From Silvibacterium dinghuense (GTDB lineage: Bacteria; Acidobacteriota; Terriglobia; Terriglobales; Acidobacteriaceae): a stretch of 64,000 nucleotides of DNA. The notes beneath the pieces are model-generated. The model saw only the letters and a program-made list of their open reading frames with translations, was not told where the DNA came from and made no database searches. Each line of letters starts with the position of its first letter. Positions within the stretch are counted from its first letter, which is position 1. Of the stretch, positions 19,198-35,418 are shown piece by piece. Position numbers and translations under genes: made by a program. The stretch is taken from positions 248,001 to 312,000 of the forward strand of contig NZ_SDMK01000001.1 of the NCBI RefSeq assembly GCF_004123295.1. Reading direction: 5' to 3'.

Positions 19198-20676
19198 TTA
19201 ATAAGAGCTTCTGGACAATAGCCCCTGGAACTTGTAATCCAGCTCAAAGAATCCGTAATTCGCACCTGTCGCTTTTGGATAAATGGCGCCGATCACGGAC
19301 TTACCGTAAGCGTGCGCATAATAAGTGCCCAATGAAAGCTGCTTCGTGAGAGCAATATCCGCACTGGCATCGAAGACAGAGCTGAAGCTGTTATGACTGT
19401 TGGCCGGTCTGCCGGTATAGCCGAATACGGTGTTATCAAAGGCTCCGCCGCCCTGATACCAGAAGTCCGAAGCAGAAGTAAGTTTGAGGAAATGCAAATC
19501 CGAGCGCAGGTCAATTCGCTTCGACGGCTTGTCGACCACCTGCGCAAAGGAATCCGTTGAATTCATCAGGTTATAGAAAGGAAAGCGCGCATACACGCGT
19601 GGCGTAGGCAACACCTGAAAAAAGGTGTTATGGGTTCCATCGGTGGCGTTATTGTCGCCAGTAGAGCGGAAATAGCCGCCGCGAATCCAGGGTGTCGTAC
19701 GAACGCTATCGAGGTGCAATCCACCTTCCGCAGCCACTGCTCCCGCGGAATCCCCGAGTTTTCCCCACGAGCCGAACTGGCCGGCACCCCAGAGCACAAC
19801 GTCTGCAGTAACACCTGTTGCTACGGGCGCCGTGGCGATCATGTCTCCGCCATAAGTGCCGATGCGGATATTCTTGTGGTCCTGCGCACGTGCCGCGGCC
19901 GATCGATTATCTGTCTTGGTTAAACCGGTGCGCCCATCGTGATAACCAAGCCCGAAGCCTCGCAGAAGAACATGCTGCCGGGCCAGCGAGCGAGTGTAAG
20001 CCAGGTACTGAATATCCACGTTGAGTTCCGGATTCGCATTCATGTTGAAGACACCCTGTATTGCGCGTCCTGCCATCGCGGTAAGATCCCAGTCCTTGCC
20101 GCCCAACTTGGCATCCGCGCCGTCAAAAGAACGCTGCCCATTGGAGAAACCGAAGTTGCCGACCAGTCGTTGCGCAACACGATTGGTCTGCAACCATGCG
20201 AGAGTGCTGTTACCAGGCGTTGTTTCCTGGCCTTCGAAGAACTCGAAACGTCCGATGCGAATTGCGGACTTATCGTCTGCAAAGTGGTAGCGCAGAAATC
20301 CCTGGCGGAAAGATGCAGCAGCGGGCATATCGTTGTTGCTGTTGGAAGCATAATAAGTACCGCCAAGACCCAGCTGTCCCTGCGCTGAAACGGTGGAAAC
20401 GGCATCTGTGGGCAGCCAGAGCTCGGCACTCTGACCCAATTCCAACTGATAATCCCAATGATGCATGCGCTGCCAGACGGCAAGACGCACTAAAGAGTCC
20501 TGGTGCGCATATTGTTCGGCGTTCGGTGTAGCAGCAAACCATTGCGTAACGTTCGTCCGCTCACGCACACTCGCGCTGAAGTGGACATCACTCGCTGACG
20601 AAGTGGGCGATCCGCTCTGTGCGAACAACACAGAGCTGCATGCGGCAAGTAGGGTTGCGGTAAGAAAGTGCTTCAC
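19198..20676 (-). CDS. Alginate-export-type outer-membrane porin of the nitrate locus
   Basis: 492 residues from GTG 20676, with AGGAG 7 nt upstream and a clean signal peptide directly after (KHFLTATLLAACSSVLFAQ). The mature protein is a long series of amphipathic strands with the marks of the alginate_exp porin family: HHWDYQLELGQSAELWLP, IRIGRFEFFEGQETTPG, DVDIQYLAY-type strands and an aromatic C-terminus. It is the last gene of the leftward nitrate gene set, 97 bp after the transporter. Despite the family name, its position suggests an outer-membrane channel for nitrate or another anion rather than alginate; this is inference from context. Confidence 0.72.
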   Translation of the reverse strand: MKHFLTATLLAACSSVLFAQSGSPTSSASDVHFSASVRERTNVTQWFAATPNAEQYAHQDSLVRLAVWQRMHHWDYQLELGQSAELWLPTDAVSTVSAQGQLGLGGTYYASNSNNDMPAAASFRQGFLRYHFADDKSAIRIGRFEFFEGQETTPGNSTLAWLQTNRVAQRLVGNFGFSNGQRSFDGADAKLGGKDWDLTAMAGRAIQGVFNMNANPELNVDIQYLAYTRSLARQHVLLRGFGLGYHDGRTGLTKTDNRSAAARAQDHKNIRIGTYGGDMIATAPVATGVTADVVLWGAGQFGSWGKLGDSAGAVAAEGGLHLDSVRTTPWIRGGYFRSTGDNNATDGTHNTFFQVLPTPRVYARFPFYNLMNSTDSFAQVVDKPSKRIDLRSDLHFLKLTSASDFWYQGGGAFDNTVFGYTGRPANSHNSFSSVFDASADIALTKQLSLGTYYAHAYGKSVIGAIYPKATGANYGFFELDYKFQGLLSRSSY

Positions 20677-20773
20677 TTGCAAGCTCCTGAAAAGAAGTAG
20701 ACGAATAGGCACGGAATGGCACATGCCGGTCTCGCTCGGCATAGTTCACGAAAGAGGGGTATAAGGACAGGGC

Positions 20774-22048
20774 TTATGCTGCGACAACATCCTCAGATGC
20801 AACACCAGCTGCATCCGCGCTGTGAGTCTGCAGAGCAAGGCCACCGGCACCGATCCAGGTCCGAGTCCATGTTCGCGATACGACCGTGATCATGACCAGC
20901 ACCAGAGCGGCAAAACCTGCATAGGCGGCAAAACCCGGACCGAACGATCCCAGATGCTGTTTGGATTGTCCCAGCACATTAGGCAGAATCGAGCCTCCGA
21001 GAGCGCCGATCTCACCGATCATGCTGCCGGCAACCGCGGTTGCCAGCGGCCAGCGGAACGGCACGAGCTGGAACGTGGCTCCATTACCTGCACCCAGCGC
21101 AGCGAAGGCAATCATGAATAACGCAGTGGTCGCGCCAAGCGCGGGCGAAGTGCTCAGGCCGATGAGTGCACCGATCACAATTGCAAAAACACCGTACAGC
21201 GTACGAATGCCGCCGATTTTGTCCGAGAGCCATCCGCCCAATACACGGGTCAGGCTACCGACCAGCGTCGCACACATCGTTAACGTCCCGGCTTGTGTCT
21301 TTGCGATGTGGAACTGAGCGACGAAAAGCGAGGGCAGAAATGTGGCAAGCCCAAGAAAACCGCCAAAAGTGATGATGTAGATCAGATTGAAATACCAGCC
21401 ATCTGCCTCAACAAGACACTTCAGATGCTCACCCAGGGAGCGATGCTCTGTATCGGGCGGCTCCTTCGCGAATACTGCCATGACGATCAACGGTATCAGC
21501 ATGAAAGCAGCAGCCAGGCCATAGACATGGTTCCATCCGTAAACATGTGCCAGCCTGGGAGCAAAGAACGCAGCAAGAGCAGTACCGCTATTGCCTGCAC
21601 CGGCAATGCCCATCGCCAGCCCTTTGTACTGCTTCGGGAACCATCCGGAACCGAGTGAAAGCGCAACGCCAAAGCTGGCTCCAGCAGTACCGAGCAGTAC
21701 GCCCATGGCAAGCACCGTCGAGAAGGAATGAACAAAAAAGAGGCCGAAGAGCAGCGCCGCAATAATGCAGCTCATCTCCACTATCGCGGCATTCTTGCGG
21801 CCGATGTACTGACCGAGAACACCCAGCGGAAAACGCATCAGTGCTCCGGCGAAGGTGGGAAGCGACACCATCAGGCCGATCTGCGCCGGCGAAAGATGAA
21901 ACTGCTCCGAGATAAATGGCCCCATGGCACCATTCAGTACCCAGACAGCAAAGGTGAAGTCAAAATAGAGGAATGAAGCAAAGAGGGTCATGGGATGACC
22001 CGAATGAAGAAACTGCTTGATGTTGGCCACTGGAAGCTCCTTATTCAA
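20774..22048 (-). CDS. narK: Nitrate/nitrite transporter, NarK/NasA-type MFS
   Basis: 424 residues with about 12 membrane helices. Early motifs are typical of the nitrate-nitrite porter branch of the MFS: FDFTFAVWVLNGAMGPFI in helix 1, RFPLGVLGQYIGRK in loop 2-3, a helix-5 motif GAGNSGTALAAFFAP and a helix-11 region GEIGALGGSILPNVLG. These glycine/asparagine motifs replace the canonical nitrate signatures closely. It is probably an inner-membrane nitrate importer supplying the reductase encoded upstream (22166-24397); 117 bp separate the two genes and 97 bp separate it from the porin downstream. Confidence 0.9.
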   Translation of the reverse strand: MNKELPVANIKQFLHSGHPMTLFASFLYFDFTFAVWVLNGAMGPFISEQFHLSPAQIGLMVSLPTFAGALMRFPLGVLGQYIGRKNAAIVEMSCIIAALLFGLFFVHSFSTVLAMGVLLGTAGASFGVALSLGSGWFPKQYKGLAMGIAGAGNSGTALAAFFAPRLAHVYGWNHVYGLAAAFMLIPLIVMAVFAKEPPDTEHRSLGEHLKCLVEADGWYFNLIYIITFGGFLGLATFLPSLFVAQFHIAKTQAGTLTMCATLVGSLTRVLGGWLSDKIGGIRTLYGVFAIVIGALIGLSTSPALGATTALFMIAFAALGAGNGATFQLVPFRWPLATAVAGSMIGEIGALGGSILPNVLGQSKQHLGSFGPGFAAYAGFAALVLVMITVVSRTWTRTWIGAGGLALQTHSADAAGVASEDVVAA

Positions 22049-22165: not shown

Positions 22166-24397
22166 TCAGCGAGTGCGTTCGACACGAACAGCACACTGCT
22201 TATAATTCGGCTCGCGGCTGATGGGATCGAATGCGCCCAATGTCACGAGATTGGAATTTTGCTCTGCAAAATGAAACGGCATGAAGACCTGCCCCGGTGC
22301 AACGATGCCGGTGATGCGCAGCTCCACATTGCGCACGCTGGAACGGCGCGAGCACACCGTAACCCGGTCATGCTGGCTGAGCGAGAGCCGCTCTGCATCC
22401 GCCGGATTCATCTCCAGCCACGCATTCGGCTGCATGGCATCCAGCATGGCGACCGCGCCGGTTTTCGTCCGCGTATGCCAATGCTCCACGGTGCGGCCCG
22501 TATTCAGGATGAGATCGAACTCATGATCCGGCTGCTCCACGAAGGGGAGACATGGCACACGATGCAAGAGAGCTCGTCCGTTTTCACGCGGAAAAATGCC
22601 GTCGCGGTACAGGCGGTCACCACCCCACTGCGCGCCTCCCTGCTCCTCGATCTGTTGCCATGTGAAGGAGCTATAGTCGCAAAGACGGCCCGCAGAAACA
22701 CGCTGCCACTCCAGCCATGCATCGTGTGTTGAGCTCCATCCTAGAAAGAGTGAGCCTTTCGCGCCGAGCCTCTCTGCCAGCGCCAGGAAGATGTCAAAGT
22801 CTCGGCGCGCCTCGCCGGGAGGTACAGCGAACGCATTCACCTTGCTAATACGGCGCTCGGAGTTGGTATAAGTACCTTCTTTTTCCCCCCAGATAGCCGC
22901 AGGCAGTACAAGATCGGCATAATCCATCGTCGGCGTGGGATAAAAGCCATCCTGGACGACCACGAATTCCGTCGACTCGAAGGCCTGTTCAAGCAGCTTG
23001 AGGTTCGGGAAGGAAACTACCGGGTTGGTCGCGATAATCCAGAGGGCCTTGATCTGCCCCTTCACTGCGGCTTCGATGATGTCGGGATAAGCCAGCCCGC
23101 GCGCCGTCGGCAAAGAATCCTCGGAAACATTCCATATCCCGGCGAGGTCGCGCCGATCCTGCGCATTCTCAAAGCGCCGATAGCCGGGGAGCGCAGAGGT
23201 GAAGCTGCTCTCGCGCGAACCCATCGCATTGCACTGGCCGGTAATGGAGAACGGCGCACCACCAGTCCGGCCGATATTCCCCGTGAGGATCGCGAGATTA
23301 TTGATGGCAGCAACAGTCACCGCACCTTGAGTAGAGTGATTGACCCCCATCGTCCAGCCGATAAAGGCCGAAGATGCGCGCCCGTACAGATGGGCCACAT
23401 GCTCAAGCGTTTCAGTTGAAAGACCGGTCGTTGCGCTGACAGCTTCCGGAGTGAAGTCGGCAGCGAACTCGACAAATGCCTCAAACCCTTCCGCATGCGC
23501 ATCGATGTATGCACGGTCGATCAGTCCGTCGCGGAGAAGGATGTGCGCGATGCCATTGAGTAATGCGATGTCAGAGCGTGGCTTCACGGGAAGATGCAGA
23601 TCGGCCATCATCGCAGTCTTGGTCACGCGCGGATCAGCAACGATCAGCACCTGCCCCGGTCGCTTACGAAGCCGGTTGCAAAGAATAGGGTGATTGTCGG
23701 CAATGTTCGCACCGATGAGCAACACGACGTCCGCGGTCTCGAGATCGGCATATGCACCAGGCGGACCATCCGAACCAAAACTTAACTTGTACCCCGAAAC
23801 GGCGCTGGCCATGCAGAGCGTAGTGTTCCCGTCATAATTGCGCGTACCAAAGCCAAGCTGAACCAGCTTTCCAAGCGTGTAAAACTCCTCGGTCAGAAGC
23901 TGCCCTGTGCTAATAACTCCGAGAGCATTGTTTCCAAAGCGCTGTTGTATAGAGCCGATACGCGATGTCATGAGGTCCAGTGCCTCATCCCAGGAAATCG
24001 GCTCCAGCTGTGTGCCACGCCCACCGCGGCGATAGAGCGGTGTCGTAGCGCGGCCTGGTGATTCCACCATGAGATGCTCGCTCAGACCTTTCGGGCAAAG
24101 CTTGCCACGATTCACCGGATGATCCGGGTTGCCGCGTGCGGCCACAGGATGCCCATCTTTCGTCCCGACAAGCATGCCGCACCCGACCGAGCAATAGCCG
24201 CATGTCGTGCGGGTCCAGGTGTCGGCAACACGCGATTCGGAGATGAAGCCGAAGCGCGGGTCTCTTCCATAGGCATACTGCGCGCGGCTGGTATCGATGC
24301 CGAGCCAGCGCAACGCGCTCGTCAGCAACGACTCTTTGCGAGATGCCGAGCGATCGCTGGCCGCGGCATTCGCATACTGCACACGCCGCTTCTTCAT
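22166..24397 (-). CDS. nasA: Molybdopterin assimilatory nitrate reductase catalytic subunit
   Basis: 743 residues. After an N-terminal extension of about 60 residues comes the [4Fe-4S] motif TCGYCSVGCGMLVG with the fourth Cys in GKLCPKG (about 65-105), followed by molybdopterin domains. The NasA/NarB-type molybdenum Cys is seen in LCMASAVSGYKLSFGSD, then GANIADNHP and MGVNHSTQG. The C-terminal molydop-binding domain includes NTGRTVEHWHTRTKTG. No Tat motif is evident, so the enzyme should be cytoplasmic. It reduces nitrate to nitrite. It overlaps the end of the DmsBC-like gene by 4 bp (ATGA), so the two are translationally coupled and probably one complex. The length fits NarB/NasA enzymes without the extra NasA-type C-terminal 2Fe-2S domain. 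Confidence 0.9.
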   Translation of the reverse strand: MKKRRVQYANAAASDRSASRKESLLTSALRWLGIDTSRAQYAYGRDPRFGFISESRVADTWTRTTCGYCSVGCGMLVGTKDGHPVAARGNPDHPVNRGKLCPKGLSEHLMVESPGRATTPLYRRGGRGTQLEPISWDEALDLMTSRIGSIQQRFGNNALGVISTGQLLTEEFYTLGKLVQLGFGTRNYDGNTTLCMASAVSGYKLSFGSDGPPGAYADLETADVVLLIGANIADNHPILCNRLRKRPGQVLIVADPRVTKTAMMADLHLPVKPRSDIALLNGIAHILLRDGLIDRAYIDAHAEGFEAFVEFAADFTPEAVSATTGLSTETLEHVAHLYGRASSAFIGWTMGVNHSTQGAVTVAAINNLAILTGNIGRTGGAPFSITGQCNAMGSRESSFTSALPGYRRFENAQDRRDLAGIWNVSEDSLPTARGLAYPDIIEAAVKGQIKALWIIATNPVVSFPNLKLLEQAFESTEFVVVQDGFYPTPTMDYADLVLPAAIWGEKEGTYTNSERRISKVNAFAVPPGEARRDFDIFLALAERLGAKGSLFLGWSSTHDAWLEWQRVSAGRLCDYSSFTWQQIEEQGGAQWGGDRLYRDGIFPRENGRALLHRVPCLPFVEQPDHEFDLILNTGRTVEHWHTRTKTGAVAMLDAMQPNAWLEMNPADAERLSLSQHDRVTVCSRRSSVRNVELRITGIVAPGQVFMPFHFAEQNSNLVTLGAFDPISREPNYKQCAVRVERTR

Positions 24398-26013
24398 GCC
24401 GCTTCACCGTGCGCCATCTTCGGTCTCATAAAGGTCAATCCCATGCTGAGCGGCACCACCGAAACAAAAAAGAGATAGCGATTAAGCATGACCGCTGTCA
24501 CGGCTGCGAGGAGCGATAGCCCATGCAGGCCGGCGACAAAGAAAATTGTCGACTGCGCAGCAGCAATCCAGCTAAGCGCAACCTTCCACCAAAGCTGCTC
24601 CCCGCGAAGATGGTGGAAGCTGGCGCGCATCTCAAAGTTATGTGAGGCGCGGAGGCGGATTAATCGAACCATCTGATTGACCAGCCAGAGCGCCGTGATC
24701 ATGGCGATCCAGTGCCAGCTCAGCACTTTCCCTGGCAAATCGGCAGCGGGAATATAAGGAGCAAGTTCCGGCCAGACGAGAACAAGAGCCTGGAGTTCGT
24801 GAAACGACCACGCCACAGGCACAGTCAGAATCGCAGCGAGTGGACCTGCCATCAGAAACGAAGACAGCACAAAGTCAATCGGAGTGTGAATCAGATTCCA
24901 TGCGGGCCGCGCCTTCACGAGATAGATGCGAGCGCTCGCAAGTGTCCCTGCAAGTCCGATGAGTGCCGCGGCAAAAGCAAGAGGCTGCGACAGAGCACGC
25001 AACTTGAGTATAGGAATCCACGCACAGAGCGTGCTTGCCTTCAACGCGAGCAGGAAGAGCGTAAAGCAGAGCACCTCGCGGCTGAGCCAGGAACGGCGCC
25101 ACATCTTCAACGCGCGCCAGGCATAGGCTGGGCGGCCAAGGTGAAAGATTGAGGTGTTAATAGCCACGATCGTGATCCCAAGCAGCAACGCGAGACTGAT
25201 GGCATCGGTACGGTGCGTCAGGAGCAGGGCGCAAAGCAGGCCAAAGGCTGCCTGCATGGCAGAGGTCATGACAATCAGCGATCCGTGCGCATGCTCCAAG
25301 ACCATGGCACCCGTGTCGACGCGGTCCAACCAGGCCGCGGAAGCCCGCTTCGCCGGCAGCGTGATGCGTGTCGTTGAGATCGTCTGCCCGGCCGGCGGCA
25401 TGCCAGGCGACTCGGCTGCGGCATAGTCTCTGCGCCACTCATCCTTGTTGATGATTTCGATCTGAATTGCGTTCTCCGGACAGGCATTCACACATGCCGG
25501 CTCGCGATCGTCGAGCAGCCGATTGCGGCACATATCGCATTTACCCACCACGCCGCGTTCCGGGTTGAACTGCGGCACACTGTAAGGGCAATTCCATACG
25601 CAATACTGGCAACCAATGCAGGCATCCGCGGAGTGCAGCACGATGCCAGTTAGAGGATCTTTCTTGTACGCATCTACCGGGCACCCGCGCAGGCAATCCG
25701 CGCTGAGGCAATGGTTGCAACCCATCGAAAGATAGGTACGCATAACATCCGGATATGTGCCACCCTCGAGCTCTCCGACGCGGCGCCACTTGATATCTGC
25801 CGGATTCCCATTCTGCTCGTTGCAGGCGATCTCGCAGGAGCGGCAACCGATGCACTTCGTCATGTCGAAGTGAAAGCGATATTGCTCCCCGGGCTCGAGC
25901 GGACGCATAGGAATAAGTGGCGGCACCGAAACCGCGCCACTCTCGGTGAGAGTGAGGCGAACCAGTTCGGCGCTGTCGCTATCCGCGGCCAGCTCATACA
26001 GTGGCAGTCCCAA
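24394..26013 (-). CDS. DmsB-DmsC-like fusion: four-cluster ferredoxin plus membrane anchor
   Basis: 539 residues. Residues about 50-200 contain four Cys groups of the DmsB/NrfC type (CIGCRSCEIACN, CNHCLSADCLRGCP, CIGCQYCVWNCP, and CDMCRN...CVNACP), enough for four [4Fe-4S] clusters. From about 250 to the end, eight or so membrane helices match DmsC (anchor subunit), with the HLGRPAYAWRALKMWRRSWL signature. The B and C subunits are normally separate; here they are one chain. Its stop overlaps the start of the nitrate reductase by 4 bp. I infer that it carries electrons, perhaps from quinol, to the nitrate reductase at the membrane. No signal peptide is seen, so the clusters face the cytoplasm. 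Confidence 0.85.
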   Translation of the reverse strand: MGLPLYELAADSDSAELVRLTLTESGAVSVPPLIPMRPLEPGEQYRFHFDMTKCIGCRSCEIACNEQNGNPADIKWRRVGELEGGTYPDVMRTYLSMGCNHCLSADCLRGCPVDAYKKDPLTGIVLHSADACIGCQYCVWNCPYSVPQFNPERGVVGKCDMCRNRLLDDREPACVNACPENAIQIEIINKDEWRRDYAAAESPGMPPAGQTISTTRITLPAKRASAAWLDRVDTGAMVLEHAHGSLIVMTSAMQAAFGLLCALLLTHRTDAISLALLLGITIVAINTSIFHLGRPAYAWRALKMWRRSWLSREVLCFTLFLLALKASTLCAWIPILKLRALSQPLAFAAALIGLAGTLASARIYLVKARPAWNLIHTPIDFVLSSFLMAGPLAAILTVPVAWSFHELQALVLVWPELAPYIPAADLPGKVLSWHWIAMITALWLVNQMVRLIRLRASHNFEMRASFHHLRGEQLWWKVALSWIAAAQSTIFFVAGLHGLSLLAAVTAVMLNRYLFFVSVVPLSMGLTFMRPKMAHGEAA

Positions 26014-26050: not shown

Positions 26051-27811
26051 CTAGTACACGTCCCGGTGATAGCGATTGTCGTCGTGCATCCGAGAGACAT
26101 ACTCCCTCGCTGCGTCCGCACTCATGGCCCCATGCTTTTCGATCAGCGCATGCAGGGCTGCATCCACGTCCTGGGCCATGCGCGAAGCATCGCCGCACAC
26201 ATACACGCGGGCATCTTCCTGCAGCCAACGCCAGAAGGTCTCGCCCTGCTCAAGCATGCGGTCCTGCACATAAATCTTGTGCTCCTGATCGCGAGAGAAG
26301 GCCGTATCAAGCCGGGTAAGATGACTGCTCTCACTCATCGACCGCAGTTCATGACAATAGAGAAAGTCGGTCTGCGCGCTGCGCTCACCAAAGAAAAGCC
26401 AGTTGCGCCCCTTGTGCCCCAGCGCTTCGCGTTCGTGGAGAAAGGAACGGAAAGGTGCAATGCCGGTGCCAGGACCGATCATGATGATCGGCGCATTGCT
26501 ATCCGCAGGCAGACGGAACTTCTTGTTCGGCTGAATATAAACAGGCACGGACTCCTTGGCGCCGATGCGCTCTGCCAGCATCGTACTGGCCACACCTCCC
26601 CGCTCGCGATGATGCGAACGATACTTCACTACGCCAATCGTGCAGTGCAGCTCGCTCCCATGCTTGGCCGGGCTCGAGGAGATGGAGTACAGGCGCGGTG
26701 AGAGGCGAGGCAGCATAGCAAACAACGTCTCTGCCGTATCGATGGCGCCGGGATATTCCTGTAGCAGATCGATAAGACCACGGCCATACAAAAATGCATC
26801 GAGATGCGCGGACTGCTCCGCAGGCAGCAGGGCCGAGAGCACCTTGCACTCAGTACGCTCGGCAAAGGCCTGCACGATTTTGCGCGTCAGCCGCGTGTGC
26901 TGGTAGTGGTGAAGGAGCGCATCGCGCACCGTGCTCTTGCCTGCCTTCGGAACATCGACCAGCTCATCAGCAGAGATTGCCAGCAGGGAGAGCGTTTCAT
27001 CAACCAGGGATGGATCGTTGCAGGCAACAACGCCGCAGGCATCCCCTGCCTCATAGGACAACGCCTCACCCAGCTGGAGCGCAAGGTGCATGGTGAGCTT
27101 GCCCGACGCGCTCGCCGTAAGCGCTCGGCGCTCGACGATCTGCGCGTGATATGGATTTTCGCGCGAATAGAGTGGCGCGCTCTTGCTGGAGGATGAGATG
27201 GCAACAGTCCGCGCCTCTGCCGGTGCTTTATCGGAACTGCGCTTCAGCGCAATCATGCATGTGGGAGTCCATGCGGCAAACGGTTCGTCGACATCTACAT
27301 CGCTTTCTACACGGGAGACGATGCGTTGCGCTCCCAGCGCAATGAGCCGCTCATCGAGTTCTGTGCCGAATGCGCAAAACTGCTCGTAGTTTCGATCCCC
27401 GAGCGCAAATACGGCGTAGCGCAAAGATCCAAGTGCTGGCGCGCTATCGAGCATCAATGCTTCACGAAAGTTCTTTGCGTGATCAGGCGGCTCGCCATCA
27501 CCATAGGTGCTTACAAAAAACACCGCATGGGCCTGCTGCGCCAGCTGCGCAGGATGGACATCCGAGAGAGACGCAACGGTTGCCGTGTGTCCGGCATCTT
27601 TCAGCTCTTTGGAAAACTTCTTGGCCAGCCGCTCCGCGGTGCCGCTCTGCGTGGCGAAGTAAACGGCGACCTCCAGTCCAGCACTCTCAGGCATCGTCTG
27701 GGCCGCAGAAGCATTCGAAAACAGCCCCGCCAGAAAACCATTGAGCCATGCGCGCTGATCGTGCGTGAAAGGCGCGTCATGGGGAATAAACGGAATATTC
27801 TGCGGTGTCAT
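26051..27811 (-). CDS. CysJ-like NADPH flavoprotein (diflavin reductase)
   Basis: ATG 27811 overlaps the nitrite reductase stop by 4 bp, giving 586 residues; a longer in-frame start at 27898 lies inside that gene. Residues about 50-190 are flavodoxin-like with the FMN loop FATQSGTAERL and STYGDGEPPDHAKNF. An FAD-binding domain follows with RLYSISSSP, then a NADP-binding domain with MIGPGTGIAPFRSFLHE and YVCGDASRMAQDVD, ending in the family signature RYHRDVY. The order is that of CysJ (sulfite reductase alpha). In this operon it most likely hands NADPH electrons to the sirohaem enzyme encoded just upstream. A role in sulfite reduction cannot be excluded, but no cys genes are near. Confidence 0.87.
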   Translation of the reverse strand: MTPQNIPFIPHDAPFTHDQRAWLNGFLAGLFSNASAAQTMPESAGLEVAVYFATQSGTAERLAKKFSKELKDAGHTATVASLSDVHPAQLAQQAHAVFFVSTYGDGEPPDHAKNFREALMLDSAPALGSLRYAVFALGDRNYEQFCAFGTELDERLIALGAQRIVSRVESDVDVDEPFAAWTPTCMIALKRSSDKAPAEARTVAISSSSKSAPLYSRENPYHAQIVERRALTASASGKLTMHLALQLGEALSYEAGDACGVVACNDPSLVDETLSLLAISADELVDVPKAGKSTVRDALLHHYQHTRLTRKIVQAFAERTECKVLSALLPAEQSAHLDAFLYGRGLIDLLQEYPGAIDTAETLFAMLPRLSPRLYSISSSPAKHGSELHCTIGVVKYRSHHRERGGVASTMLAERIGAKESVPVYIQPNKKFRLPADSNAPIIMIGPGTGIAPFRSFLHEREALGHKGRNWLFFGERSAQTDFLYCHELRSMSESSHLTRLDTAFSRDQEHKIYVQDRMLEQGETFWRWLQEDARVYVCGDASRMAQDVDAALHALIEKHGAMSADAAREYVSRMHDDNRYHRDVY

Positions 27812-29592
27812 GATGCGATATCTCCCTGCTGTGTTGCGCACATGCCGCGAAGCTCGTCGATGCTGTGCCGCTGTGTAAAAACAAGAAAGCTTTCGCAATC
27901 ACGGCGTTGTGCCATGTAACGGTCAAACAGCGCATGCAAAGCAGGAAGAAGATCACGGTACTTCATCGCGGGAAAGAGCTGACGGGCAATCGCCTGATCG
28001 CTATCCGCTCCGCCGCCAAGGTTCACCTGGTAGCCCTCGTCTCCGTCGACCTTCACGCCCATCAGGCCGATATCGCCGACATAGTGCTGCGCGCAGGAAT
28101 GAGAGCAGCCTGTCACATGGAGATTGACTGGCTGCAGAATGCGGAATGCGCTGTCGAGCGAGCGGGCAATCTCAAGCGCATGGCTCTTGGTATCGGCCGC
28201 CGCATACTTGCAGCCGCGATTCCCGGTGCAGGCGACCGTACCGCTCTGCACCGTGCCGGCGGAGATCTCGAGCCCCGCGCCCAGTAAGGCAGCACGCGCT
28301 TCATCGAGACACGCAGTGGGGACATTGGGAAGAATCAGGTTTTGCCAGACCGTCAGCCGGAGTTCGCCGCAGCCGAAACGCTCTGCGACTTCCGCGATGG
28401 CGCGCGCCTGCTCAACAGACAGCAATCCCACAGGGACACAAACGCCGATGTAGGAGAGCCCCTCCTGCCTTTGCGCATGCGTGCCAAGATGCCCCGCGCG
28501 ATCAACAGGACCACGCGATTCGCATTCTGAAGCTGCAACACGCAACACAGGAAATGCTAGCTTTTTCTCGGTTTCTTGCAGAAACCGTTCGACGCCCCAG
28601 CGATCGAGAAGGTACTTCAACCGCGCTTTTTTGCGGTCCGTACGATCGCCGTTTTCCGCAAAGACCCGCACCATCGCAGCCGCGACGGCAACCGCCTGCT
28701 CAGGAAGAAGCAACAGCCCACAGTCTGTCGCAAACTGCTTGTGGCCGGTAATGCCGCAGAGCAGCACGCGGAAGTAGATGCCTGCAGGCACGTTGCGGCC
28801 TTCCGCCACTCGGACCGCGACAAAGCCGATATCGTTGGTGTCAGCCAGTACGCTGATCACGCCACCGTTGTCGAAGGCGATATTGAACTTGCGCGGCAGG
28901 CCGAACAGATCGCGCGAATGCGTGATGTAGTTCTGCATCGCATCCGCATAGGGCTGCACGTCGAGCAGTTCCTGGGGATCGTAGCCGGAAATTGGCGAGG
29001 CGGTGATGTTGCGGATGTTGTCCGCGCCCGAACCGAGCGAACTCATGCCCAGCCTGCGAATACTGTTCAGCACATGCACCACATTCTTGGGCGCAAATTC
29101 ACGCAACTGGATATTGGCTCGTGTCGTCAGATCGATACGAGAATTGCCCCACTGTTCGGCAATCTGCGCAACGCCGCGCAGCTGCGCAGCCGTCATTACG
29201 CCGCCTGGCACGCGCATACGCAGCATGAAGGAATCCTGCGCTGGCGCGACATGGAACAGTCCATGAAATTTAAGCCGGAAGCGGTTCTCTGCATTCGGTG
29301 CTTCGTTGCTGGCTGCGGTCCGCAGCAGTTCATCCCACAGATCAAGCGGGTTGCTCTGGTACTTCCAAAGCTCTTCGGCGCAAAGATCGGAGACCGGCGT
29401 GCCGAAAAACATCTCTTCCTGCGGGGCGGCCAGATTCGCTCCAGTGCCGGGCTGGCAGGTCAGCTGTCCGGCGGCATTCTGGCCGACAAACGGGCGCTGC
29501 ATGACACCGGCAAAGAATCCGCGGAGATAGTTCTCCTGCTCCGCCGAAAAGGCGGATGACAGCGATTCGAGTTGTGACGGCATCGATGGCAT
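27808..29592 (-). CDS. nirA: Sirohaem/4Fe-4S nitrite reductase (NirA-type; sulfite reductase as alternative)
   Basis: 594 residues from ATG 29592, whose AGGAG lies 9 nt upstream; ATG 29598, two codons earlier, is only 3 nt from it. Two duplicated nitrite/sulfite reductase half-domains are visible: RANIQLREFAPKNV and a DIGFVAVRVAEGRNVPAGI segment, then a second copy with LRLTVWQNLILPNVP. The sirohaem/cluster Cys pairs are in ACTGNRGCKYAAADTKSHA and TGCSHSCAQHYVGDIG. It reduces nitrite to ammonium with six electrons, presumably from the CysJ-like protein encoded next (4-bp overlap). NirA and CysI share this fold; the nitrate reductase and transporter genes favour nitrite. It is the first gene of the leftward operon. 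Confidence 0.88.
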   Translation of the reverse strand: MPSMPSQLESLSSAFSAEQENYLRGFFAGVMQRPFVGQNAAGQLTCQPGTGANLAAPQEEMFFGTPVSDLCAEELWKYQSNPLDLWDELLRTAASNEAPNAENRFRLKFHGLFHVAPAQDSFMLRMRVPGGVMTAAQLRGVAQIAEQWGNSRIDLTTRANIQLREFAPKNVVHVLNSIRRLGMSSLGSGADNIRNITASPISGYDPQELLDVQPYADAMQNYITHSRDLFGLPRKFNIAFDNGGVISVLADTNDIGFVAVRVAEGRNVPAGIYFRVLLCGITGHKQFATDCGLLLLPEQAVAVAAAMVRVFAENGDRTDRKKARLKYLLDRWGVERFLQETEKKLAFPVLRVAASECESRGPVDRAGHLGTHAQRQEGLSYIGVCVPVGLLSVEQARAIAEVAERFGCGELRLTVWQNLILPNVPTACLDEARAALLGAGLEISAGTVQSGTVACTGNRGCKYAAADTKSHALEIARSLDSAFRILQPVNLHVTGCSHSCAQHYVGDIGLMGVKVDGDEGYQVNLGGGADSDQAIARQLFPAMKYRDLLPALHALFDRYMAQRRDCESFLVFTQRHSIDELRGMCATQQGDIAS

Positions 29593-29837
29593 GTGCATCC
29601 TCTCCTTTGAAAGGAACCGGTGGATACACGACGGCCTGAAGATCGCGAAGTCTGCAAAAACACGAAAGCCCCGTTACGAACGCAGGAGTTCCACACGCAG
29701 ATCAGCGGTGATCTCAGGCTCGTCGCGGAGCGCTTTTGTTTTCAGTGCAAAATTCAATTCTGGAGGAGCGGCGGACGCATCGAGGGGCCACGCTCACATC
29801 CGATTGCCATCAGCTGCCGTGGCTGACGGAATCAATA
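29593..29837 (-). promoter_or_regulatory. Long 5' leader of the nitrate operon with ANTAR-like hairpins
   Basis: From the predicted start (about 29837-29835) to nirA the transcript has about 240 untranslated nt. Near its 5' end CCGTCAGC (29829-29822) pairs with GCTGATGG (29814-29807), an 8-bp stem including one G-U, closing the loop ACGGCA plus a bulged C. A second hairpin, AGATC/GATCT (29714-29699), closes the hexaloop ACCGCT. Both loops have A at position 1 and G at position 4, the ANTAR-target rule. A weaker GC hairpin near 29685-29666 (CGTT/AACG core) with a downstream GTGTTTTT could act as terminator. The spacing of the two hairpins (about 90 nt) is longer than usual, so the structure is a hypothesis; the long leader itself is solid if the promoter is right. 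Confidence 0.4.
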
Positions 29838-29842
29838 CGCAG

Positions 29843-29871
29843 AGTATAGGGCCAGGATTCCTGCGATGCAA
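29843..29871 (-). promoter_or_regulatory. Sigma-70-type promoter of the nitrate assimilation operon
   Basis: On the minus strand TTGCAT (29871-29866), 17 bp, TATACT (29848-29843). Only one position departs from consensus in the -10 box, and spacing is ideal. It points at nirA, 250 bp downstream. Confidence 0.6.
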
Positions 29872-29904
29872 GCCCGATCGCAAAAGCAAATTTTCAAGTT
29901 CCAG

Positions 29905-29934
29905 ATCGGGTGGATTCATTCTCGTCCGCCCGAT
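29905..29934. promoter_or_regulatory. 10-bp inverted repeat ATCGGGYGGA, candidate operator
   Basis: ATCGGGTGGA (29905-29914) and TCCGCCCGAT (29925-29934) are mirror copies with one mismatch and a 10-bp spacer. A third copy of the core, GCCCGATCG, lies at 29872-29880 touching the -35 box. The array lies in the intergenic region between nirA and the HemD-GAF-ANTAR gene and could bind a DNA-level regulator of either. Confidence 0.4.
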
Positions 29935-30085
29935 ATCAGATTCCATGCACAAGAAAACACGGCTTTCTGTGCGTTTCTCTCATCTTTCCGGAAGCACACC
30001 CCACATACGCGACATAGAATGAAATTGATTCTCCTTTCATCATCTGCGATAGTTCACTCGACTCAACTACATTTTCTGGAGCTCT

Positions 30086-31750
30086 ATGCCGCACGCCACA
30101 TTCGATGGCCTTAGAGTACTGTCTCTGGAGACCCGTCGTGCGCGCGAGGTAGAAAAACTCATCCGGGCGTACAGTGGCGATCCCCTCGTCGTGCAGTCGA
30201 TGCGCGAGATTCCACTCAGCTCGAATACTGCCTGCATTGAATTTGGGAAGCGCCTCCTGGCAGGCGAATACGATGTCGTCATCTTCATGACCGGCGTAGG
30301 CGTCAGCAAGATGATGGAGGTGCTCAGTACCAGCTTCGACCCCGAAACGATCCTTGAGGAGTTGCGGAAACGCAAGATTGTCGCGCGTGGCGTGAAGCCG
30401 GTAGCAGCGCTCAAGGAGCTGAAAGTCCCGGTCACAGTGACCACATCCGAACCCAGCACCTGGCGTGAAGTCCTGGCGCTGATGGATCAGAAATTCGGCA
30501 GCGAGCTCTCCAGCTATCACGTAGCCGTGCAGGAATACGGGGCCACGAATCCGGAGCTGATCGCCGAGCTCGTGGATCGCTGCGCCTCGGTCACCAAGAT
30601 TCCTGTTTATCAGTGGGGCCTCCCCCACGACATCGCGCCGCTCGAAAAGGCCATTCACGAAATCATGGATGGATCGATCGATGTCGCGCTGTTCATGACC
30701 GCAGTGCAGGCCATCCATCTTTTTCACGTAGCGCAGGAGATGGGTGTCGCCGAAGAGTTACGCCGCGCGCTCAGCCATATCGTCGTCATCTCGGTTGGCC
30801 CTACCACCACAGAGGAGCTTCTCCACTACGGACTGCAGCCGGACTTCGAGCCGTCACGGCCGCGCATGGGCTTCATGGTGAATGAAGCCGCACAATACGC
30901 GCGCAAGGTGCTGGCCGCCAAGCGCGCGGAAAATGCCATCGATCCGGGCACCACGGCCGCAGAAGCCTCTCCTCCTCCGCAGTCGGTGGCGCGCACGCTT
31001 CAGCGTTCCGTTCCCCAGGTAGCGACCTCCACATCTACCATGGCCGGCTTTCGCGACGGGCTCGCTCCGCTTGACGTGCTGCAACAGGTCAGCAGCAGCC
31101 TCAGTTCCACAGATCCGCTGCATGTCGTGCTCTCGCGCATCGTCGTCTGCGTCTGCGCGATTGTTCCCTGCGATTCGTGCTTTCTCTATACGCTCGAAGA
31201 GGACAAACTGGTCCTGCGCGCATCGCGGAACCCTCACGCCGAAGAATTGGATCACCTTAAAATTTCCGTCGGACAGGGCGTTACCGGCTGGGTCGCCGAG
31301 CACCGCGAGCCCGTCTCCATCCCCGAACATGCCAGCGAAGACGTGCGCTTCGCGCCCTTCCGCAATCTCCCGGAAGACACCTTCGAAGCCATGCTCTGTG
31401 TCCCCGTGCTCTGCGCCGGACGCGTAGTGGGCGTGCTCAACCTGCAACATCAGAAGCCCTACTTCCATACCGATATGGAGCGCCGCCTGCTGGCTACAAT
31501 CGGCGTCCTGGTCGGTGCAGAAATTGAACGGGCACGGCTCGAGACTGAAAATCTCCAGCTCTTAGACCGCCTTGAGTCACGGAAGCTGATTGATCGCGCG
31601 AAAGGAATCCTGCAGCGCGATCTCAAGATATCCGAGGACGAAGCCTATCGCATGATGCAGAAGGAGAGCCGCCAGCGGCGGAAGTCCATGAAAGAGGTCG
31701 CGGACGCGATTGTCCTCTCGGAGAGCCTGCGCTCCTCCGCAAAATCCTGA
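30086..31750 (+). CDS. HemD-like / GAF / ANTAR three-domain protein, candidate nitrate-operon antiterminator
   Basis: 554 residues. Residues about 8-275 match uroporphyrinogen-III synthase (HemD) fold: RVLSLETRRAREVEKLI, DVVIFMTGVGVSKMMEVL, VAVQEYGATNPELIAEL, and VVISVGPTTTEELLHYGL. A linker (about 280-325) leads to a GAF domain at about 327-482 (VGQGVTGWVAEHREPVSIPE, FEAMLCVPVLCAGRVVGVLN). The C-terminus (about 489-546) is ANTAR, an RNA-binding antitermination helix bundle (SRKLIDRAKGILQRDLKISE, EAYRMM). CTGGAG lies 5 nt before the ATG. HemD-type domains occur in the actinobacterial nitrite regulator NnaR (with a winged helix), and ANTAR in NasR of Klebsiella. This combination, divergent from a nitrate operon, suggests an antiterminator sensing nitrate, nitrite or tetrapyrrole supply. 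Whether the HemD part is catalytic is open. Confidence 0.86.
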   Translation: MPHATFDGLRVLSLETRRAREVEKLIRAYSGDPLVVQSMREIPLSSNTACIEFGKRLLAGEYDVVIFMTGVGVSKMMEVLSTSFDPETILEELRKRKIVARGVKPVAALKELKVPVTVTTSEPSTWREVLALMDQKFGSELSSYHVAVQEYGATNPELIAELVDRCASVTKIPVYQWGLPHDIAPLEKAIHEIMDGSIDVALFMTAVQAIHLFHVAQEMGVAEELRRALSHIVVISVGPTTTEELLHYGLQPDFEPSRPRMGFMVNEAAQYARKVLAAKRAENAIDPGTTAAEASPPPQSVARTLQRSVPQVATSTSTMAGFRDGLAPLDVLQQVSSSLSSTDPLHVVLSRIVVCVCAIVPCDSCFLYTLEEDKLVLRASRNPHAEELDHLKISVGQGVTGWVAEHREPVSIPEHASEDVRFAPFRNLPEDTFEAMLCVPVLCAGRVVGVLNLQHQKPYFHTDMERRLLATIGVLVGAEIERARLETENLQLLDRLESRKLIDRAKGILQRDLKISEDEAYRMMQKESRQRRKSMKEVADAIVLSESLRSSAKS

Positions 31751-31895
31751 ATCACAGGATCGAACTTGAGGCCTGCTCCGGCCTCCATGATCCAGACTTT
31801 GAACATCGCCGCTCTCGTCCTTTACCAAAACCATGACGAACGGAGCCGCATGTGCGAGCATCCCAGTCAGGAAGACACATGAGCACGGCGACGCG

Positions 31896-33338
31896 ATGAA
31901 TTCTCCTTTACCCCCTACCTCTCTGCCTGCGATCTCCCCTTCGACCCGGCGGCTGCTGCCGTGGCTGGTCGCAGTTGCCTTCTTCATGGAGTCGCTGGAC
32001 ACAACGATCCTGAATACGGCCGTGCCTGCCATCTCGGCCGCGCTGCGTGTAGGCCCACTCAGCATGAAGGCCGTGCTGGCCAGCTATACGCTGGCGCTCG
32101 CTGTCTTCATCCCCATCAGCGGATGGGTGGCCGACCGCTTCGGCACGCGGCGAGTCTTCTCCGCAGCCATCGGCCTCTTCACGCTCGGCTCGCTGCTCTG
32201 CGGTCTCTCGACGAACATCCACCTGCTCGTAGCCTGCCGCGTGTTGCAGGGCATGGGTGGATCGATGATGGTCCCGGTGGGCCGTCTCACACTTGTGCGG
32301 GCCTTTGAAAAATCCGAACTGATCCGGCAGATGAGCTTCGTCTCCATCCCCTCGCTGGTCGCGCCGATGCTCGGCCCCGTCGCGGGAGGTCTCATCGTCG
32401 GCTACCTGCACTGGCGCGTCATCTTCTTCCTCAATATCCCAGTCGGCCTGCTCGGACTGGTGATGGTCTACCTGCATCTGCCGGATTTCCGTGAGGAACA
32501 CACGCATCCACTCGATGCCGTGGGCCTCATCCTCTTCGGTTCCGGCGTGGCGCTGCTTTCCTATGTGCTCGAGGTCTTCGGCGAGCACACACTCGGCGCC
32601 GGCGAAATCACCGGCATGCTCGTGATCTCGCTGGTGCTGATCCTCGGCTACTGGCTGCACGCGCGATCCATCGCCTATCCCCTGCTCGATCTCACACTCT
32701 TCCGCATCCGCACCTTCCGCGCCTCCGTAAGCGGCAGCTTCTTCACGCGCCTCGGCATCGGCGGCGTGCCGTTCCTGCTGCCGCTGCTCTACCAGGTCGG
32801 TCTTGGATATTCCGCCGTGCAGTCGGGCATGCTGATCATGCCGCAGGCCGTCGCTTCAATGAGCATGAAGGCTGTGATGCCGAAGGTGCTGGCGCGGCTC
32901 GGCTATCGCAATGTGCTGGTGTCGAATACGGTGATCATCGGCTGCCTGTTGCTGCTCTTCGCCACCATCGGCCTGCATACGCCGGTGTGGATGATCGTGC
33001 TGCTGGCCTTCCTCTACGGCGGATTCACCTCGCTGCAGTACACCAGTATGAACACGCTGGTCTATTCGGATACCACCGAGGAACAGACCAGCGCGGCCAG
33101 CTCGATCGCCAGCACCATGCAGCAGATGTCGGTCAGCTTCGGCGTAGCCTGCGCCGGCCTGGCTACGGCCTTCTTCCTGCCGCATGAAGAACATGCCTCG
33201 AACGTCAGCATGATCCATGGACTGCACAAGGCGCTGATCGCTCTCGGCCTGATGACGATTGTCTCGACATTGGTCTTCCGCAGCCTGCGCAAAGATGACG
33301 GACAGGCCGTGAGCCACCCGAAGGTATTTCACCCATAG
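31896..33338 (+). CDS. MFS multidrug efflux transporter, DHA2 (EmrB/MdtD) type
   Basis: 480 residues from ATG 31896; an in-frame ATG at 31833 would add 21 residues unlike the family start. About 14 membrane helices are expected. Motif A-like GWVADRFGTRRVF, motif C-like SLVAPMLGPVAGGLIVG (helix 5) and a helix-1 acidic site VAVAFFMESLDTTILNTAVP are typical of proton-driven DHA2 drug exporters. No membrane-fusion partner is adjacent, which resembles MdtD rather than EmrAB. It converges with dinB with only 2 bp between the stops. Substrate unknown. Confidence 0.9.
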   Translation: MNSPLPPTSLPAISPSTRRLLPWLVAVAFFMESLDTTILNTAVPAISAALRVGPLSMKAVLASYTLALAVFIPISGWVADRFGTRRVFSAAIGLFTLGSLLCGLSTNIHLLVACRVLQGMGGSMMVPVGRLTLVRAFEKSELIRQMSFVSIPSLVAPMLGPVAGGLIVGYLHWRVIFFLNIPVGLLGLVMVYLHLPDFREEHTHPLDAVGLILFGSGVALLSYVLEVFGEHTLGAGEITGMLVISLVLILGYWLHARSIAYPLLDLTLFRIRTFRASVSGSFFTRLGIGGVPFLLPLLYQVGLGYSAVQSGMLIMPQAVASMSMKAVMPKVLARLGYRNVLVSNTVIIGCLLLLFATIGLHTPVWMIVLLAFLYGGFTSLQYTSMNTLVYSDTTEEQTSAASSIASTMQQMSVSFGVACAGLATAFFLPHEEHASNVSMIHGLHKALIALGLMTIVSTLVFRSLRKDDGQAVSHPKVFHP

Positions 33339-34563: not shown

Positions 34564-35418
34564 GTGATACCTGAACCGATCCCCGTCCCGGAAGGAATGA
34601 GCCTGCGAGATGAGCTCAACTTCCGCGCCCGGCTCTGGGCAAAGATGCATGGGTGCATGGCAGCCGAGTTGGGAGGAGAAGCCTCGAGCGTGCTGTTCGG
34701 CTGTAACGAAGCGGGCCGGCGCGACAATTTTCTACCCGAAGTCCACGCGGAGATTCTCGCCCGACCAGCCTGGGCCAGGCGGCTCGAAAAAGTCCACACC
34801 GCCTACCGGCGCTCCCGCGCCCGCGCCGACTGGCCATGGCGGGAGCTCGATGCAGCGGTCAGCTCGGACGCGTTACTGATGAATATCTTCTGCCACCCGG
34901 CATCGAGCAGGAATACCGCGCTGCATGCCCTGCTTGGCGAAGCGGCCGGCTCCGAACCGGAATTCGGAATCAGGCCGCGCACTCCGCTGGCCTCAGGCCG
35001 TGGCGACACAACGGAGATCGATATGCGCATCGGCCATCTTCTCGTCGAGGCAAAACTCACAGAATCGGACTTTCAAATTGCCCCGGAAAGGCTTATCCAT
35101 CGCTATCGGGATATCGAAGAAGTCATTGATATCGCATCACTTCCTCGCCTTGAGGATGGGCGCTTTCCGGGCTACCAGCTGGTTCGCGGAGCCCTTGCCG
35201 CTCATGCCACCGGCCTCAGCTTCGCCGTCCTGTGCGACGCCCGGAGACCCGACCTGATCGAGTCCTGGCTCCAGGTGCAGCGCTGTATCCGGCCACTCGA
35301 ATTGCGCATCCGCCTCAAGCTGCTCACCTGGCAGGAGATCGCTGCGACATTAGAATCCGGCCATCAGGGCTTCCTCGGAGCCAGATACGGCATCTTTCCT
35401 TCGAGCGATATACGCTGA
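34564..35418 (+). CDS. Putative PD-(D/E)XK-type nuclease-like protein
   Basis: 284 residues from GTG 34564 (ATG 34597 is an alternative). Residues about 145-175 show the PD-(D/E)XK core: TEIDMRIGHLLVEAKLTESD, with Asp in IDMRI and the E-x-K in EAK, and an upstream acidic helix. The rest has Arg/Leu-rich helices and ends without a DNA-binding domain I can name. It resembles PGN_0703-type putative restriction endonucleases, but no methyltransferase is adjacent, so a DNA-repair role next to dinB is equally plausible. The shared, palindromic intergenic region supports co-regulation with dinB. Confidence 0.6.
   Translation: MIPEPIPVPEGMSLRDELNFRARLWAKMHGCMAAELGGEASSVLFGCNEAGRRDNFLPEVHAEILARPAWARRLEKVHTAYRRSRARADWPWRELDAAVSSDALLMNIFCHPASSRNTALHALLGEAAGSEPEFGIRPRTPLASGRGDTTEIDMRIGHLLVEAKLTESDFQIAPERLIHRYRDIEEVIDIASLPRLEDGRFPGYQLVRGALAAHATGLSFAVLCDARRPDLIESWLQVQRCIRPLELRIRLKLLTWQEIAATLESGHQGFLGARYGIFPSSDIR

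Follow-up and report, generated by a model that had tools for sequence, protein, structure and literature searches.

Known RNA targets of ANTAR proteins carry two hairpins with six-nucleotide loops (hexaloops) that have an adenine at loop position 1, a guanine at position 4 and a C:G closing pair (A1/G4 loops; PMC3369931, PMC7496416). In the structure of EutV bound to RNA, G4 is stacked on Tyr164 and held by Arg142, Lys149 and Glu160; A1 is without specific contact and may prevent the formation of pseudotriloops, and a plug residue, Met172, may contribute (PMC8934654). A linker range of 2–25 nt has been used for such RNAs, and in actinobacteria few of them proved to lie upstream of a terminator (PMC8164766). 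Here we analyze a 64,000 nt stretch of the genome of Silvibacterium dinghuense (assembly GCF_004123295.1, contig NZ_SDMK01000001.1, positions 248,001 to 312,000; hereafter the window), in which a single gene encodes a fusion of HemD-like, GAF and ANTAR domains. The protein, named HGA after these three parts, is encoded divergently from a nitrate assimilation operon whose first gene is nirA, and its candidate RNA targets are located in the nirA leader.

Parts of this system can be recognized in several described regulators. As with NasR, the NIT-ANTAR protein of Klebsiella, a one-component ANTAR protein is found at a nitrate assimilation operon with leader hairpins. HGA differs from NasR in carrying HemD and GAF domains, no NIT domain being matched in a Pfam scan up to E 0.01, in the C1/G4 type of its candidate loops (cytosine at position 1), and in that a terminator was not clearly detected. 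The ANTAR domain, the G4-contact residues and probably the logic of a dual hairpin leader are shared with NasS-NasT and EutV-type systems, yet the Pfam scan found no receiver domain in HGA and an arginine occupies the position of EutV Met172. HGA is like the GAF-ANTAR proteins in these two domains and differs from them by the HemD-like domain fused in front. The actinobacterial NnaR likewise has a HemD-like N-terminal domain in a regulator linked to nitrate and nitrite genes, with a separate canonical HemD in the genome; its output, however, is a DNA-binding winged helix of the OmpR type, whereas that of HGA is GAF plus the RNA-binding ANTAR domain. No paper treating HemD, GAF and ANTAR together was found in the open-licence literature, nor did any title or abstract start there (on the topics of ANTAR, uroporphyrinogen, Acidobacteria and nitrate assimilation) point to HGA, and the statement of a first-pass annotation of the window that no regulator with this domain order has been described is not contradicted by that literature.

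The 554-residue chain proposed in the same annotation is borne out. All three domains lie above the curated Pfam cut-offs, with HEM4 (HemD-like) at residues 22–265 (E 1.7e-28), GAF at residues 345–480 (E 2.8e-16) and ANTAR at residues 491–543 (E 4e-18; 65.4 bits against a cut-off of 27.3), and because full-length homologues with 49–81% identity exist in many genomes the reading frame is not a chance one. An AlphaFold model of HGA made with 26 aligned sequences (mean predicted local distance difference test score, pLDDT, 80; predicted template modelling score, pTM, 0.49) contains a low-confidence linker at residues 286–342 and a helix, residues 463–513, that connects GAF and ANTAR. Compared with known structures, the HemD part of the model matches Thermus uroporphyrinogen-III synthase (1wcx; Z 26.6, root-mean-square deviation 2.5, 251 aligned) and the GAF part is closest to the GAF domains of PtsP (3ci6; Z 20.7, root-mean-square deviation 2.9, 138 aligned). 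The ANTAR domain of HGA is the only one found in the genome. A canonical HemD is encoded elsewhere, adjoining hemC, so the HEM4 domain is not the sole one; the two HemD sequences share 27% identity over 99 residues only. Five stand-alone GAF-ANTAR proteins of relatives share 52–56% identity with the GAF and ANTAR parts. Residues 362–365 of the GAF domain form a CDSC motif, which is found in all fusions seen and in these five proteins, and is not found in the GAF-ANTAR protein of locus L033 (loci are numbered with L, genomes with G). A role of CDSC as a nitrate-specific metal site was rejected, as the stand-alone proteins carry it too. At L023 (9074–10688) a frame change within the GAF domain, due to a sequencing error or marking a pseudogene, interrupts the HGA gene of genome G025.

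The domain combination is real, conserved and strongly tied to nitrate assimilation of the NirA type in Acidobacteriaceae. In a set of 61 genomes (its own and 60 relatives), matches at E ≤ 1e-60 were found in 19, comprising full-length fusions and also separate HemD or GAF-ANTAR proteins. HGA and NirA were further searched in 399 genomes of the class, with the best three candidates per genome scored. At E ≤ 1e-100 HGA was found in 41 class genomes as 47 copies, and when about 9 kb were read on either side of each copy nirA was present near 35 of the 47, always within about 3 kb. NirA at E ≤ 1e-150 was found in 35 class genomes, the same 35 in which HGA lies near nirA, and in none of the 358 without HGA, counts in which related genomes are not independent and which co-transfer of the cluster would also yield. 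The architecture is thus found mostly beside nitrogen genes rather than away from them, and the link to nitrate genes drawn in the first-pass annotation has held, all 35 close-NirA genomes having HGA. The linkage is kept despite rearrangement of the operon in L108, L109, L110 and, within the 61-genome set, L022. Named genomes contributed 12 full-length HGA loci, 11 of them with nirA; ten of these 11 are surely additional, and L146 may duplicate L067. The named hosts include Terriglobus albidus, Granulicella aggregans, G. sapmiensis, G. mallensis, Bryocella elongata, an Edaphobacter and other metagenome-assembled genomes.

HGA and nirA are separated by a gap of 487 nt, and the candidate leader hairpins of nirA are a feature absent from the first-pass annotation. 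A promoter of the pattern TTG[CA]nn, 16–18 nt, TAnnnT was found in 28 of 35 nirA leaders, against 1.4 expected from shuffles, and sits 82–122 nt ahead of a hairpin designated B. The consensus of hairpin B, GCUC-CNNGNN-GAGC, is present in 35 of 36 nirA leaders (the exception is L109) as well as in 11 of 11 nirA loci of the named genomes. The leaders thus share with known ANTAR targets the G at loop position 4 and the C:G closing pair, but differ from them at loop position 1: in a search that left this position free, it is C, not A, in all 35 leaders having the stem. A second hairpin, A, is located upstream. Relatives have forms with a 6-nt loop, such as GGCAC-CAUGCC-GUGUC, and under a rule allowing a loop of 6 or 7 nt with C or U at position 1, G at position 4, a C:G closing pair and a stem of at least 5 bp, hairpin A was found upstream of B in 24 of 45 leaders, while 2.4 were expected from random stretches of the fetched loci. 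Further differences from known targets are the 7-nt loop of hairpin A in the window, where only B is a hexaloop, and the distance between the hairpins, since most nirA linkers exceed the 2–25 nt range: the linker is 75 nt in the window and 24–38 nt in 17 rows of alignment A1, only one of which falls within that range.

When a strict pair was required (two 6-nt loops with C1, G4 and a C:G closing pair, and stems of 4 or more), 19 of 46 nirA leaders contained one, compared with 0.56% of random 450-nt stretches, and the equivalent A1/G4 pair was found in 0 of 46. Before other genes the strict C1 pair was seen in 0 of 19 porin, 0 of 45 CysJ, 0 of 40 FeS, 0 of 40 NasMo and 1 of 20 NarK leaders, and in 0 of 59 leaders of HGA itself. 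Helix A in alignment A3 shows two-sided changes in three of its five pairs, and pairing is kept in 99.0% of cells (values as high arose in 1 and 0 of 500 shuffles), a covariation that partly follows from the choice of rows. Helix B is uninformative on covariation because it never varies. G4 and the C:G closing pair are invariant in the hairpin A rows too, most of which were selected for that. In the window leader, a pair that includes the A1/G4 stem AGATC-ACCGCT-GATCT (29699-29731) was dropped as chance, any such pair being present in only 3 of 36 leaders. An Rfam scan of 28500–32500 returned two weak matches (E 1.6 and 2.7), far under gathering scores, and whole-leader folding of the window nirA leader was unremarkable (z -1.5).

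The ANTAR domain was aligned in 53 rows (48 HGA and 5 stand-alone GAF-ANTAR proteins), omitting the protein of L033 and one half of the interrupted L023 gene. The residues equivalent to EutV R142, K149, E160 and Y164 are kept in 53 of 53 rows; the G4-contact residues are therefore unchanged and C1/G4 loops are compatible with G4 recognition. The position of EutV Met172 is an arginine in all 53 rows, including the five stand-alone proteins, whereas EutV, Rv1626, NasR and AmiR have methionine at this plug position in the same alignment. The Met172 plug is not known to be a universal trait of ANTAR proteins and is therefore not taken as defining. That A1 and the Met172 position have changed together is suggestive of co-evolution, although the stand-alone relatives also carry the arginine.

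HGA is probably a one-component RNA-binding regulator of the nitrate assimilation genes that would act through leader hairpins A and B, and judging from the sequences a mechanism at the RNA level is likely. What we infer is that HGA binds the hairpins, in which direction it acts, which output step (termination, translation or decay) it uses and which ligands it has. The ANTAR part, presumably as a dimer formed through the long helix of residues 463–513, would bind hairpins A and B, both with G4 and a C:G closing pair, near the start of the nirA leader, and the operon would be expressed when the sensor of HGA, made up of the HemD-like and GAF domains, is active. In the window clade, hairpin B, once bound, would no longer release its 3' strand (GAGCC) for a competing long-range helix. 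As this strand is also the 5' arm of that helix, hairpin B and the helix would be mutually exclusive, resembling the relation of P2 and terminator in other ANTAR leaders. For 10 of the 12 window-clade leaders and 3 of 30 others the competing helix reached p < 0.05, in a comparison where related leaders are not independent, the clade was picked after seeing the result, and L023, L108 (too short) and one duplicate were left out. Output through Rho, translation or decay would also be possible. The NasR-like control suggested in the first-pass annotation gains weight as to its RNA route from the conserved leader hairpins; it does not carry over in detail, the loops being C1/G4 and not A1/G4 and terminators not being clearly enriched.

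The hairpins were also found where the genes are arranged differently. An RNA model, R1, was built from 17 of 21 listed pairs, without L033, L092, L096 and L097, and at E ≤ 0.001 it matched 19 of the 399 class genomes once each, all 19 with HGA. The FeS-NasMo unit forms a separate transcription unit in L108 and L109 and is preceded there by its own hairpin B, located at 7511 on the minus strand in L108 and at 10747 on the plus strand in L109; the FeS leaders of L022 and L110 look similar by eye, without a statistic. The porin gene is placed separately in L153 and L156, with weak R1 pairs upstream (E 0.0045 and 0.0012). In L033, from another family of the order, nirB, an open reading frame for a NirD-like Rieske protein and a stand-alone HemD (46% identical to the fused HemD of HGA) lie in a row, and a divergent gene encodes a 410-aa GAF-ANTAR protein. 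Both C1/G4 hairpins are present between the GAF-ANTAR gene and nirB, directly before nirB, with an 18-nt linker (R1 E 0.0029). The domains of HGA are therefore divided here over distinct genes of a single nitrite reductase locus, in which the same RNA element precedes another type of reductase gene.

Several observations weigh against HGA as a hairpin-binding regulator of these genes. Twelve of its 47 copies are not near nitrate genes. The hairpin A rule is unmet in many leaders, including those of the window's nearest relatives L067, L068, L147 and L148, for which other scans listed a 3-bp form, and the pairing of helix A in alignments A1 and A3 is partly built in because a minimum stem of 4 bp guided the choice of most rows. 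Among the 35 genomes with HGA near nirA, R1 left 16 unmatched; 17 of the 19 genomes it matched belong to its training set, and it matched in none of the six HGA genomes without NirA. Neither R1 nor a second model, R2, matches the window's own nirA leader, R1 giving nothing better than E 0.34 in that genome, and the pattern of hairpin B alone, GCTCCNNGANGAGC, is at chance in the genome (13 occurrences, 18 in the backward control); support for the hairpin element of the window thus comes from its position and orthology and not from rarity. Loop position 1 of hairpin B in the porin leaders is U in L153 and A in L156, not C. Terminator-like hairpins, in 19 of 45 leaders against 13.4 expected, are not clearly enriched, and a consensus scan of the window leader listed no terminator on the nirA strand. 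L033 is a single case, in whose 15 kb two further dual pairs occur that are taken as chance; in five other genomes of the L033 family the GAF-ANTAR relatives lack a nearby NirB.

A scan of 347 genomes of the phylum with R2 gave 18 matches at E ≤ 0.01, with about 3.5 expected by chance. The nine strongest (E ≤ 6.6e-4) and the weaker matches in G181 and G154 are in genomes with HGA and NirA. The seven others, including that in G224, scored 23.9–25.6 bits (E 0.004–0.009), have no nitrate-operon homologue within 3 kb and were rejected; three of the seven were viewed in alignment, and each fits only one hairpin well. The scan of these genomes thus revealed no convincing additional locus.

By analogy with what is supposed for NnaR, the HemD-like part of HGA most likely senses a tetrapyrrole or a nitrogen oxide without acting as an enzyme, and HGA would hypothetically be coupled to tetrapyrrole or sirohaem supply. 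The domain scored 112 bits with NF005568 (cut-off 273), which from its length and name we take to be the NnaR model, and 134 bits with NF004584 (cut-off 233), in both cases below the cut-off; the canonical HemD of the genome scored 47 bits with NF005568 and was not listed for NF004584. On the GAF side, PtsP GAF domains respond to glutamine. It is rather unlikely, if compatible with HGA being an RNA-binding regulator, that the protein is bifunctional, the HemD part making uroporphyrinogen III for the sirohaem of NirA while the RNA-binding part tunes expression. NirA does require sirohaem, the HemD fold is intact in the model, and NF004584, the best NCBIfam match, is a plain uroporphyrinogen-III synthase model. 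Relatives of the same HemD subfamily are fused to uroporphyrinogen decarboxylase (UroD, HemE; L037, 9637–11631, plus strand), so the HGA HemD part may yet have an enzymatic role, or are placed after nirBD (L033). Against this, a canonical hemC-hemD pair is present elsewhere in the genome, and the HemD domain of NnaR has been reported inactive in S. coelicolor (PMC6277429, PMC11162112). No role is known for the HemD-like domain of NnaR (PMC11162112).

The leader could conceivably be an independent cis element, such as a riboswitch or the site of another regulator, with HGA controlling the nitrate genes by some other route, and this we consider unlikely. As the leader element tracks nirA as well as HGA, a very similar pattern would be expected of a cis element that has nothing to do with HGA, and with no R1 match in the six NirA-less genomes it follows nirA and not HGA. 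Loop position 1 differs from known ANTAR targets, and most linkers are longer than the range used in PMC8164766. However, in L033 these hairpins occur together with a GAF-ANTAR gene and precede another type of reductase gene, nirB, and two C:G-closed G4 hexaloops are what ANTAR proteins recognise (PMC3369931, PMC7496416).

The six HGA genomes without NirA at E ≤ 1e-150 are G088, G130, G295, G337, G391 and G407. On a tree of 48 HGA proteins the neighbourhood label needs 4 changes, compared with 11.0 in shuffles, and the 12 orphan copies form one clade of eight (support 95/99), one pair and two single rows. That HGA is a general regulator standing beside nirA by joint transfer, as the orphan copies with eight in one clade and the six genomes retaining HGA would suggest, is very unlikely given so few changes on the tree and a linkage that outlasts several operon rearrangements. 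The eight-member paralogue clade without nitrate genes comprises L098, L100 and L102–L107; its neighbours, with names judged by eye, include a stomatin-like gene in seven and an mpl-like gene in five. Strict C1/G4 pairs were seen three times in 13 orphan loci (L103, and L105 twice), none with the hairpin B stem, and were taken as chance.

Table 1. Features of the HGA–nirA locus, in window positions
Feature	Position	Strand	Basis
HGA regulator gene	30086..31750	+	554 aa from ATG; Pfam matches, orthologues, AlphaFold model
-35-like element TTGCAT of nirA leader promoter	29866..29871	-	TTG[CA]nn pattern; not listed by stricter consensus scan
-10-like element TATACT of nirA leader promoter	29843..29848	-	TAnnnT pattern
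Candidate hairpin A, CCGUCAGC-CACGGCA-GCUGAUGG	29807..29829	-	8 bp, 7-nt loop, C1/G4
Candidate hairpin B, GCUC-CGCGAC-GAGC	29718..29731	-	Hexaloop, C1/G4, C:G closing pair
5' arm of putative competing helix, GAGCCUGAGAUC	29710-29721	-	Overlaps 3' strand of hairpin B
3' arm of putative competing helix	29634..29644	-	p = 0.035 in window
nirA, sirohaem nitrite reductase, first gene of presumed target operon	27808..29598	-	NF007126 783.6 bits, above cut-off
CysJ-like diflavin reductase	26051..27898	-	TIGR01931 580 bits, under cut-off 668
Fused DmsB-like ferredoxin and DmsC-like membrane anchor	24394..26013	-	Fer4_11 and DmsC, single chain
Molybdopterin oxidoreductase, presumed assimilatory nitrate reductase	22166..24397	-	PF00384/PF01568
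NarK-family nitrate/nitrite transporter	20774..22048	-	TIGR00886 228 bits, under cut-off 312
Alginate_exp-type porin, recurring neighbour	19198..20742	-	PF13372; synteny

The divergent nitrate operon, described as complete in the first reading of the window, was found as six minus-strand genes, NirA scoring above its cut-off (Table 1). The diflavin, molybdopterin and NarK scores are under curated cut-offs, and the roles of these genes therefore rest partly on their neighbours. For the molybdopterin subunit the NCBIfam model of NasC gave 472 of 1100 bits, and the best model, also below its cut-off, was formate dehydrogenase alpha with 538 of 666. In our judgement, a DmsB-like 4Fe-4S ferredoxin fused to a DmsC-like anchor, together with a CysJ-like diflavin reductase, is an unusual electron-transfer set for an assimilatory nitrate reductase. 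The gene for the Alginate_exp-type porin, possibly a nitrate porin, turns up repeatedly at nitrate loci, though not always in the same orientation. On the other side of HGA, at 34564–35418 on the plus strand, a protein matching REase-ARP (PF22558, E 1.5e-42) adjoins a DNA polymerase IV gene.

The same kind of HemD-like domain is found in another phylum, with an unrelated output domain and next to genes of the same pathway, which argues that what it senses is tied to nitrite reduction, and HGA offers a second system for asking what the NnaR-type HemD-like domain senses. If bound, the predicted hairpins would add C1/G4 to the A1/G4 rule of ANTAR recognition, and searches based on A1/G4 could miss such targets. 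More tentatively, as a possibility that we would not call likely, HGA may represent a separate ANTAR branch, in which a HemD-like tetrapyrrole sensor drives an ANTAR domain whose plug has changed from methionine to arginine in co-evolution with widely spaced C1/G4 hairpins, tying the mRNA of the nitrate operon to the supply of sirohaem precursors. If true, this branch would be a second output, acting on RNA and not on DNA, for the NnaR-type sensor module.

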